The notes under the pieces are model-generated. The model did no database searches, was not told where the DNA came from, and was given only the letters and a program-made list of their open reading frames with translations. Below are positions 1 through 1,502 of a DNA stretch of 64,000 bases, one piece after another. A program made the position numbers and the translations under genes. Source of the stretch: Clostridia bacterium (GTDB lineage Bacteria > Bacillota > Clostridia > Oscillospirales > CAG-382); the NCBI GenBank assembly GCA_017397955.1, contig JAFQHL010000031.1, positions 1-64,000 of the forward strand, read 5' to 3'. The stretch's first letter is position 1. Each line of letters opens with the position of its first letter.

Positions 1-80
1 CCGGTTGGTATTACGATGCACCTGTAGCCATATTAACGATGGATAAGCTGTATGGCAGTGATGCCCAATACCAAAACTAA
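1..80 (+). CDS. C-terminal end of a truncated protein
   Basis: The window opens inside a reading frame (codons starting at base 3) that ends at the TAA at 78-80. Only about 25 residues are visible, beginning GWYYDAPVAILTM and ending GSDAQYQN. The WYYDA run is reminiscent of S-layer-homology repeats, but too little is present to name the family. It is followed 18 bases later by an intrinsic terminator, which supports it being a real gene end. Confidence 0.55.
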   Translation, partial: GWYYDAPVAILTMDKLYGSDAQYQN

Positions 81-98
81 AAACAAAATAGATAATCA

Positions 99-130
99 AA
101 GCAACTTACAAAAAGTAGGTTGCTTTTTTT
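99..130 (+). terminator. Intrinsic terminator after the truncated gene
   Basis: An 11-bp stem (AAGCAACTTAC at 99-109 with GTAGGTTGCTT at 115-125, one G-T pair) has a five-A loop and is followed by a T run at 126-130. It terminates plus-strand transcription from the gene ending at 80. Confidence 0.8.
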
Positions 131-313
131 ATACCCAAAAATATTTTATGAAAGGAGTTTTTCTTATGAGGAAAAACACAACACGCGCCTCAAGCATATT
201 GCTTGTGCTGCTATTGCTGTTCGGGTCCTTACCGCTTTCTGCATTAAGTGCAACGGCAAAAACATTGGAGACGATTACGGCAGGGGGCTCAGAGCGAAAG
301 TCTATACGAAAAA

Positions 314-331
314 TGTGCTCACGTGAGCACA
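314..331. promoter_or_regulatory. 18-bp perfect palindrome, copy 1
   Basis: TGTGCTCACGTGAGCACA is a perfect palindrome ending 12 bases upstream of the sense -35 box. It recurs at 643-660, 971-988 and 1009-1026. The TCACGTGA core is shared with ParB parS sites but the flanks differ. It is most likely an operator for a dimeric regulator, or a recognition site used when the unit was duplicated or moved. Confidence 0.65.
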
Positions 332-343
332 AAAGGGAAAAGC

Positions 344-371
344 TTGACAAAAAAGGTCAAGCGGATATAAT
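344..371 (+). promoter_or_regulatory. Sense promoter, unit 1
   Basis: TTGACA (344-349) and TATAAT (366-371) are both consensus, with a 16-base spacer; start is expected near 378. TTGAC and GTCAA form a small inverted repeat (344-348 with 356-360) over the -35 side and could be an operator. Confidence 0.85.
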
Positions 372-413
372 GGTAGTTAGGGTGTTACCTAAACGGTAGG
401 CGGTTTAATCCTG

Positions 414-427
414 CCCCCGAAAGGGGG
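414..427 (+). promoter_or_regulatory. Shine-Dalgarno-sequestering hairpin, unit 1
   Basis: CCCCC (414-418), GAAA (419-422) and GGGGG (423-427) form a five-GC-pair hairpin with a GNRA loop. Its 3' arm is the core of the ribosome site for the ORF at 436, so translation should be low until the leader is refolded or processed. This is a usual trait of type I toxin mRNAs. The same hairpin is at 743-756 in unit 2. Confidence 0.7.
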
Positions 428-435
428 AGTTGCTT

Positions 436-504
436 ATGGATTACTTAATAGCACTGATAATTATATTGGTTTTATTAAACGAGTTTCAAGGCAAAAAGAA
501 ATAA
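436..504 (+). CDS. Small hydrophobic peptide, putative type I toxin, copy 1
   Basis: A 22-codon ORF preceded by AAGGGGGAG (six-base spacer). The peptide starts MDYLIALI, continues as an almost unbroken Ile/Leu/Val helix and ends GKKK. That is one short membrane-spanning or amphipathic helix with a basic tail, as in type I toxins such as TxpA, BsrG or Fst. A consensus promoter on the opposite strand fires back into its 3' end. The ORF is exactly conserved in unit 2 while surrounding noncoding bases differ. Toxicity is inferred from architecture; no family match was checked. It is too short for routine gene callers. Confidence 0.65.
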   Translation: MDYLIALIIILVLLNEFQGKKK

Positions 505-585
505 CCGCCCGACGTCCAATCTAAGCGGTTATCTCTTTTAACTTCTTAACATTGGGGCAAACCGTCTATCGGTAACACCCTTTCT
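492..585 (-). ncRNA. Putative antisense antitoxin RNA, unit 1
   Basis: Its minus-strand promoter is perfect consensus with 17-base spacing, giving an expected start near 585. Transcription converges on the toxin gene and should stop at the two-way terminator near 492, giving an RNA of roughly 90-95 nt that overlaps the toxin mRNA 3' region. The layout is that of TxpA/RatA and BsrG/SR4 pairs, where the antisense RNA promotes degradation of the toxin mRNA. The exact ends are estimates. Confidence 0.6.
501..532. terminator. Two-way terminator shared by sense and antisense RNAs, unit 1
   Basis: ATAACCGC (501-508) pairs with GCGGTTAT (525-532). On the minus strand the stem is followed by TTCTTTTT, a good terminator for the antisense RNA. 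On the plus strand the tail is CTCTTTT, which is weaker, so some sense read-through is plausible. Confidence 0.7.
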
Positions 586-591
586 ATATAC

Positions 592-620
592 ATTATAGCC
601 CCACAGAGGGGCAATGTCAA
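592..620 (-). promoter_or_regulatory. Antisense promoter, unit 1
   Basis: Read on the minus strand: TTGACA (620-615), a 17-base spacer, then TATAAT (597-592). The spacer contains GCCCC/GGGGC arms (598-602 and 608-612). Their five-base loop varies between the two units while the arms stay fixed. Confidence 0.85.
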
Positions 621-642
621 GAGTTTTTTGGGAAAAGCCAAA

Positions 643-660
643 TGTGCTCACGTGAGAACA
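643..660. promoter_or_regulatory. 18-bp palindrome, copy 2 (one mismatch)
   Basis: Same palindrome as at 314-331, with one C-to-A change in the right half. It lies 329 bases downstream of copy 1 and in the same position relative to the second sense promoter. Confidence 0.6.
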
Positions 661-672
661 AAAGGGAAAAGC

Positions 673-700
673 TTGACAAAAAAGGTCAAGCGGATATAAT
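673..700 (+). promoter_or_regulatory. Sense promoter, unit 2
   Basis: Consensus TTGACA (673-678) and TATAAT (695-700) with a 16-base spacer, identical to unit 1 and offset by 329 bases. Confidence 0.85.
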
Positions 701-764
701 GGAAGTTAGGGTGTTACCTAAACGGTAGGCGGTTTAATCCTGCCCCCGAAAGGGGGAGCTGCTT

Positions 765-833
765 ATGGATTACTTAATAGCACTGATAATTATATTGGTT
801 TTATTAAACGAGTTTCAAGGCAAAAAGAAATAA
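765..833 (+). CDS. Small hydrophobic peptide, putative type I toxin, copy 2
   Basis: Nucleotide-identical 22-codon copy of the ORF at 436-504. It has the same CCCCC-GAAA-GGGGG leader hairpin (743-756) over its ribosome site. Exact conservation of a short ORF next to diverged noncoding sequence suggests either recent duplication or selection on the peptide. See copy 1 for the functional reasoning. Confidence 0.65.
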   Translation: MDYLIALIIILVLLNEFQGKKK

Positions 834-912
834 CCGCCCAGTCTCCAAACTAAGTGCGGTTATTCTTTAACTGTTCTTTTGGGGCAAACCGTCTATCGGT
901 AGCACCCTTTCT
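820..912 (-). ncRNA. Putative antisense antitoxin RNA, unit 2
   Basis: Expected to start near 912 from the consensus promoter at 919-947 and to end after the stem AATAACCGC (829-837) / GCGGTTATT (856-864). The terminator loop differs from unit 1, so the two antisense RNAs are not the same molecule. They may differ in how well they act on each other's toxin mRNA. Confidence 0.6.
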
Positions 913-918
913 ATATAC

Positions 919-947
919 ATTATAGCCCCGTATAGGGGCAATGTCAA
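919..947 (-). promoter_or_regulatory. Antisense promoter, unit 2
   Basis: On the minus strand TTGACA (947-942), 17-base spacer, TATAAT (924-919). The GCCCC/GGGGC arms in the spacer are conserved, with the loop changed from ACAGA to GTATA. Confidence 0.85.
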
Positions 948-970
948 GTGTTTTTTATGAAAAAGCCAAA

Positions 971-1103: not shown

Positions 1104-1132
1104 TTGACAAACTAAAAAAACGATGCTATTCT
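1104..1132 (+). promoter_or_regulatory. Promoter of the structured RNA candidate
   Basis: TTGACA (1104-1109), 17-base spacer, TATTCT (1127-1132); transcription start expected near 1139. No plausible ORF with a ribosome site follows. Confidence 0.75.
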
Positions 1133-1138
1133 AAGAAC

Positions 1139-1344
1139 GAAAATACAATATAAAACAACTTGTCCCTTAAAAGTTTGGCGACTTCTAAGGGACAACGAGA
1201 GCAAACAATGACGGTGTTTGCCTGTCTTTTAAGTTGTTGTTTTTTCTGTTGATTTACGTATCGTATTTTAACAGATTACATACTAAAAGTCAAGCCTTTA
1301 CTGCGTATTTTGTTTGCGACAAGTACAGTAAGCTTGGCTTTTTT
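1139..1344 (+). ncRNA. Unassigned structured noncoding RNA candidate
   Basis: Downstream of a good promoter lies a three-way junction. P1 is AACAACTT (1154-1161) with AAGTTGTT (1231-1238). P2 is GTCCCTTA (1162-1169) with TAAGGGAC (1186-1193), extended by AAGT/ACTT and capped by TTGGCG. P3 is GCAAACA (1201-1207) with TGTTTGC (1215-1221). A T run at 1240-1245 could end a ~105-nt RNA. Two more hairpins follow: TCTGTT/AACAGA with inner TACG/CGTA (1245-1275), and a terminator pairing 1287-1303 with 1326-1340 before T4. A ~205-nt read-through form is therefore also possible. I do not recognise the family; raiA-type and other clostridial sRNAs would be the first comparisons. Confidence 0.6.
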
Positions 1345-1376: not shown

Positions 1377-1429
1377 GAAAAAAAGACAAACTTACCAATA
1401 ACACCCAAAGGTGCTATCGGTAAGTGTCT
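1377..1429 (-). terminator. Terminator of tRNA-Gln
   Basis: A long stem of about 20 pairs lies directly after the tRNA on the minus strand, followed by a seven-T run (plus-strand A run 1377-1383). Its first stem base is the terminal A of the encoded CCA. Confidence 0.8.
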
Positions 1430-1502
1430 GGCAGCGGGTGAAGGATTCGAACCCTCACAAACAGAGTCAGAGTCTGTCGTGCTACCTTTACACAAACCCG
1501 CT
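1429..1502 (-). tRNA. tRNA-Gln (anticodon CUG)
   Basis: Read on the minus strand, the acceptor arms AGCGGGT and ACCCGCT pair fully. The D arm is GTGT/GCAC. The anticodon stem is ACAGA/TCTGT around the loop CTCTGAC, giving anticodon CTG (reads CAG, Gln). The T arm GAGGG/CCTTC encloses TTCGAAT. The discriminator is G and CCA is encoded. The cloverleaf is complete and the gene is 74 bases with CCA. Confidence 0.93.

Follow-up and report, generated by a model that had tools for sequence, protein, structure and literature searches.

A putative antisense RNA pair at the tRNA-Gln end of an IME in a Clostridia bacterium

The window analysed here, a 64,000-nucleotide stretch of a Clostridia bacterium genome of the Oscillospirales (assembly GCA_017397955.1, contig JAFQHL010000031.1, positions 1 to 64,000; below, contig C15 of genome G000), starts at base 1 of its contig. 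Close to that start, at the 3' end of a tRNA-Gln gene into which an integrative mobilizable element (IME) has integrated, lies a structured RNA locus with a promoter on each strand. Judging from the sequence, we tentatively read the locus as an antisense RNA module of the IME, probably one of plasmid-type self-control. A homologous locus with the same layout of promoters and the same three-way junction is present at the same tRNA gene in a second species of the genus, G005, where it belongs to a different IME.

The RNA locus lies at the tRNA end of an IME

The RNA does lie between a toxin array and tRNA-Gln, as the original prediction had it, but this stretch is not host sequence; an IME has integrated at the tRNA, and the stretch is its end. 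In six other genomes of the genus, synteny from the uvrC side reaches the 3' end of tRNA-Gln (window position 1429) and then stops. The 44-bp 3' end of the tRNA gene is attL (1429 to 1472, minus strand), and an identical repeat, attR, is found at G000:C47:6751-6794. A tyrosine integrase gene (PF00589; C47:5802-6698) adjoins attR. Beyond attR, C47 matches the native tRNA-Gln flank of an element-free relative, G003, at 85% identity over 324 bp. Because of the repeat, the integrase, the synteny break and the element-free flank in G003, we assign the RNA locus to the IME and not to the host. C47 also carries genes for a MobC/NikA-like protein, a relaxase (PF03432), a Toprim primase, ParA, a Noc-like ParB and an SSB. 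The hallmarks of an IME are all present: an integrase (PF00589), a relaxase (PF03432, with MobC) and, at a tRNA, attachment sites in direct repeat (the 44-bp repeat). The tRNA-proximal part of the window, as far as 1428, is thus the end of this element that adjoins the tRNA, and it includes both the toxin array and the RNA. Its parts are read from two contigs, C15 and C47, with the contig break near repeated toxin units. In the circular form of the IME, the plus-strand RNA would have as its neighbour the integrase gene, with its 3' end nearest and on the opposite strand.

Two tandem type I-like toxin units (344 to 947) are cargo of the IME; they feature a 22-aa hydrophobic peptide and facing antisense promoters. 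The 329-bp unit is present in at least three copies (window 311-960 and G000:C47:1-350, locus L067), the copy on C47 lying after the genes listed above, with the palindrome TGTGCTCACGTGAGCACA between units. It comprises the peptide MDYLIALIIILVLLNEFQGKKK, consensus promoters on the plus strand and, facing it, on the minus strand, and a start, AGGGTGTTACC, common to both RNAs. The unit resembles par/Fst type I toxin-antitoxin modules; the peptide has no match in Pfam or NCBIfam.

The palindrome TGTGCTCACGTGAGCACA, whose core TCACGTGA is as in canonical parS, occurs at eight sites with at most one mismatch (window 314, 643, 971 and 1009; G000:C47:326 and 1168; G000:C2:17720 and 23281); the rest of the genus, as far as its genomes were compared, lacks such sites. 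One site is inside the parB gene, and the sites separate the cargo units. From their sequence and setting, they are likely the parS sites of the Noc-like ParB. Two of them, with starts 38 bp apart (971 to 1026), stand upstream of the RNA, and at the same place G005 has two GTGCCAA..TTGGCAC sites with starts 39 bp apart. As a separate observation, window positions 1-310 contain the last part of a gene and an ORF with a signal peptide that breaks off at the first palindrome; this stretch is cargo, or else the assembly was joined at the repeat.

A plus-strand unit without a coding sequence

The plus-strand promoter, TTGACA-17-TATTCT (1104 to 1132; 10/12), has an extended -10 element (TGCTATTCT, with TG). 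In G005, a promoter with the same hexamers and spacing is found at L020:1415-1443. As placed by promoter and terminator, the predicted transcript would span about 205 nt (1139 to 1344). P1 consists of 8 pairs between AAAACAAC (1152-1159) and GTTGTTTT (1236-1243). It encloses the P2 hairpin (1160 to 1195; stem 1162-1169/1186-1193, upper stem 1171-1184) and the P3 hairpin (1201 to 1221; arms 1201-1207/1215-1221, 7 pairs, 7-nt loop). There follow a T6 run (1240-1245) and two more hairpins, the last of which is an intrinsic terminator (1285 to 1344) with a T run at 1339-1344. All of these parts had been predicted, and each is in the sequence as described. The fold of 1138-1345 (-63.5 kcal/mol, z -6.1) was better than those of all 200 dinucleotide shuffles; folded alone, 1138-1248 gave a z of -4.4 and 1249-1345 a z of -2.8. 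The statement that no ORF explains the locus also stands, as an ORF scan of the window found no ATG-started ORF of more than 14 aa within the plus transcript.

Two suggestions about the 3' end fared less well. The T6 run near 1245 had been offered as a second 3' end, but G005 reads GTTCTTT there, so that the run is not kept. Regulated read-through had been the other idea; there is no gene to regulate, since the only gene downstream is the convergent tRNA-Gln (minus strand, 1502-1429) and the co-directional gene that would mark an attenuator or riboswitch is absent.

Given the position at the end of the IME and terminators that face both ways, the locus might be an insulator, with hairpins that just stop transcription between the element and tRNA-Gln; terminator T1, near one end of Tn916, would be a precedent (PMC11658703). 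An insulator, however, needs neither promoters nor a conserved three-way junction, and a separate tRNA terminator (1425-1390) already parts the two units. We consider this explanation very unlikely.

A homolog in a second IME at the same tRNA gene

Among six other species of the genus, only G005 has the RNA, at about 55% identity. Its IME runs from a primase fragment through a DhiT-like/DUF2442/HTH toxin-antitoxin cargo and the element's own palindromes to the promoter and the structured region; in this incomplete genome, no second attachment site turned up. The cargo in G005 is flanked by a direct repeat with paired GTGCCAA..TTGGCAC-type palindromes (L020:239-294 and 1317-1371), which is the layout seen around the toxin units of the window.

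When the transcribed parts alone were aligned pairwise, none of 500 shuffles did as well, locally or globally. In the MAFFT alignment P2 is free of gaps, and all 12 of its window pairs are kept in G005, six of them by double changes. P1 has 7 pairs on the minus strand in G005, P3 has 6 with an unchanged loop length, and G005 has a similar GTCAAGyCTTTA stem for the plus-strand terminator. As a less circular test, we built a covariance model from the window alone, leaving out promoter and terminator. On the 6-kb G005 contig, the model scored best exactly where the counterpart of the RNA lies (22.2 bits, E 0.01, against 13.8 bits for the runner-up), and P1, P2 and P3 line up there in register. 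Over 751 kb of related loci, however, the E value of that match is just 1.3. The homology therefore rests on position, promoters, alignment and structure jointly, and not on the model score by itself. The three-way junction that had been predicted is backed by these compensatory changes, with P1 to P3 kept in the homolog. Between the window and G005 the letters of stems and loops differ while the form is the same, as is expected of self-specific antisense pairs.

The minus strand is the likelier owner of the fold

Besides the IME boundary, the original prediction had missed an opposite-strand promoter and a better fold on that strand. The antisense promoter, TTGACT-17-TAAAAT (1293->1265, minus strand), has an extended -10 with TG and lies within the 5' arm of the plus-strand terminator, which contains its -35. 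Its counterpart in G005, TTGACA-18-TAAAAT (L020 minus 1592->1563), also with TG before the -10, is at the equivalent place and likewise has its -35 in the plus-strand terminator. Because each strand has only about 1.5 matches to the search pattern in 10,000 bases, an opposite-strand promoter at the same place in two 200-bp stretches is unlikely to be due to chance. A hairpin P4, once considered as conserved, was dropped; the conserved ATTTTA there is the antisense -10. The predicted minus-strand RNA would be about 110 nt long (1145 to 1258), with an A-rich 5' tail, the three-way junction and a U-rich 3' end.

In the shared region, the minus strand folds with a z of -5.6 versus -4.7 for the plus strand in the window, and with -5.3 versus -2.5 in G005. 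On the minus strand every listed pair of P1, P2 and P3 forms in both species, whereas the plus strand has one A-C mismatch among these pairs in the window and three in G005; the P2 mismatch common to both species is a G-U pair on the minus strand. A minor exception is one loop-closing position in G005, where a U-G favours the plus strand. Moreover, the G005 minus RNA ends in a terminator hairpin with T8, while that of the window is weaker. Because of the better z values, the complete pairing, the conserved minus promoter and the T8 hairpin of G005, the structure, on these folding models, more likely belongs to the minus RNA. The plus RNA, which is complementary to it and has a conserved promoter and a terminator of its own, is likely its partner. 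What survives of the initial description is thus an RNA that is structured and non-coding and that has a promoter and a terminator to itself, but not the plus strand as the main structured RNA. More generally, a structure may be noticed on one strand and yet be that of the opposite strand; G-U pairs and promoters decide.

A second promoter on the opposite strand also recalls type I toxin-antitoxin systems, in which case the plus RNA would encode a very small peptide and the minus RNA would be the antitoxin. The adjoining toxin units have facing promoters as well, and a 14-aa hydrophobic ORF, MTVFACLLSCCFFC, begins in the P3 loop at 1208. However, G005 has only an unrelated, non-hydrophobic 15-aa ORF, MQSFELRSLCGYFST, neither start has a good ribosome-binding site, and longer frames cross the terminator; comparison of the window with G005 yielded no conserved small hydrophobic peptide with a ribosome-binding site on the plus RNA. 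We find this reading quite unlikely.

Searches for further members

The family had been called unknown, and at the curated cut-off Rfam matched only tRNA-Gln in the whole window; 6S, SRP, raiA, which had been proposed for checking, and the other families gave no match at the gathering score. Loose thresholds produced chance-level matches around the window RNA, none common to G005. Among the candidates rejected were ctRNA_pT181 (RF00242; 20.5 bits versus a cut-off of 56) and CopA (RF00042; 16.4 versus 60 bits), both on the minus strand of the window and absent in G005. With blastn, the window RNA against relatives, plasmids and phages and the G005 RNA against family genomes and plasmids gave only chance matches that were promoter- or A+T-rich. 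A model built from the window and G005 sequences with the promoter included (R1) found no third member in 63 family and 394 order genomes. Its best other matches, at 30-34 bits, were mostly promoter-driven, and those inspected were a different RNA. The two-promoter pattern matched nine other places in the 394 order genomes, without R1 support, and 77 in viral contigs, none with a convincing R1 match. The RNA was absent from 35 relaxase-related IME loci from public genomes, and plasmids, phages and viral contigs held no third member at the sensitivity used. Either the RNA family is rare or it evolves too rapidly to be picked up in this way. With its two members, the family is new; the kind of control would be a known one, met here in a setting that is new.

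That there are two examples only, the searches of family and order genomes having added none, would also fit a chance structure or a decayed remnant without present function. The compensatory changes, the two conserved promoters and the alignment unmatched by shuffles all argue against this, and we hold it to be highly improbable.

The searches turned up features in other elements. In a relaxase-related element of a Defluviitaleaceae MAG (L103:7339-7453), a promoter of the same style (TTCTTGACA...TGTGCTATACT) precedes AGCTT pentamer repeats, which lie at the end of the contig and may represent a repeat-type RNA. The L149 match (1614->1501, minus strand) is the leader of the excisionase/integrase genes of an element in G332. 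This leader has a promoter with an extended -10 and forms long hairpins, and a hairpin resembling a terminator stands ahead of the small HTH gene; it looks like a regulated leader RNA. In the compact related IMEs L092, L105 and L106, the stretch from the relaxase region to the tRNA has a common, conserved element end, AAGGTTG.GCCGAA.AT.ATAAACC.TGAA.AACGGC, beside the tRNA, a possible integrase-binding or transfer-origin site.

A nested antisense pair as the proposed mechanism

In the mechanism that we propose, the plus-strand promoter would make an untranslated RNA, and the promoter inside the plus terminator would make a minus RNA fully complementary to the 5' half of the plus RNA. In the minus RNA, a three-way junction whose P3 loop has 7 nt would be joined by a U-rich terminator. 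Through its loops and its 5' tail, the minus RNA would bind the plus RNA and block the action or the extension of the latter, like plasmid countertranscript RNAs. With ParA, ParB and dispersed parS-like sites, the element would thereby limit its own copy number or activity, and it may also exclude close relatives. In keeping with this scheme, the predicted promoters conserved in two loci would give an antisense RNA with a promoter to itself, lying opposite the 5' part of a longer sense RNA, and stable stem-loops and a terminator are present. The element, the homology, the structure and both promoters are results of computation; transcription, pairing and function are inferred. It is this nested pair, on an element with ParA, ParB and several parS-like sites, that suggests plasmid-type self-control, whether of copy number, excision or compatibility. 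Against the scheme, only two members are known and the Rfam countertranscript models are far below their cut-offs. Moreover, the usual target, a rep mRNA or primer, appears to be missing because the plus RNA terminates before the tRNA with no replication or transfer gene downstream. The plus RNA does not look like a rep leader either; ATG-started ORFs in 1139-1428 that end before the terminator are at most 14 aa long.

A stand-alone sRNA of the IME, from either strand, could instead act in trans on element or host mRNAs or bind an element protein, the opposite promoter being secondary. The well-defined promoter, fold and terminator and the strong minus-strand fold would suit such an sRNA, and SGI1, also an IME, has one in its mobilization module (PMC10954446). 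However, no long G+C-rich complementarity to the element genes was seen, the runs found being U/G-rich and up to 19 nt long; the two species differ in their loop letters, which argues against a shared host target, and two facing conserved promoters fit an antisense pair better. We judge such a stand-alone sRNA to be unlikely, and retain the antisense pair as our tentative reading.

If confirmed, the pair would extend plasmid-type RNA control to uncultured Clostridia-like bacteria and their small tRNA-integrated elements, the target RNA being one without a gene, and would offer a handle on the coexistence of such elements at one tRNA site. A broader claim, which we think unlikely, would be that the two loci represent a fast-evolving class of IME antisense pairs. 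In such a class, a three-way-junction antisense RNA with a non-coding target would lie between parS-like sites and the attachment site, and tRNA-integrated elements would control copy number, excision or compatibility without a rep-gene target.

Comparison with known systems

Antisense control is well known for plasmids. In ColE1 RNA I/RNA II, R1 CopA/CopT and pT181 RNAI, the antisense promoter lies in the target unit and directs a short hairpin RNA with a U-rich terminator; this short RNA complements a longer one in the 5' part of the latter, and its letters change fast while its form is fixed. pMV158 RNAII likewise has a hairpin, a 5' tail and a U-rich end (PMC4485353). The window pair shares with plasmid countertranscripts the nested antisense promoter, the short hairpin RNA, the U-rich end and the fast letters in a fixed form. 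It differs from them in that no rep gene or primer region lies downstream, in its three-way junction and in its place at the attachment end of an IME.

Other systems are less close. The sgm-sRNA of SGI1-family IMEs is also a small RNA encoded by an IME, but it is carried in the mobilization module with oriT (PMC10954446), whereas the window RNA is beside attL, away from the relaxase. T1 of Tn916 resembles the window terminators in lying near the end of an integrated element, but is described as a terminator only (PMC11658703). The neighbouring par/Fst-like units, too, have facing promoters and overlapping RNAs on an element; theirs enclose a 22-aa hydrophobic peptide, whereas the window RNA is a nested antisense without a conserved peptide. 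Because the rep-leader target is lacking and the Rfam models give no match, we do not file the window pair with ColE1, CopA, pT181 or pMV158. By analogy, however, it is these countertranscript systems that the pair would work most like.
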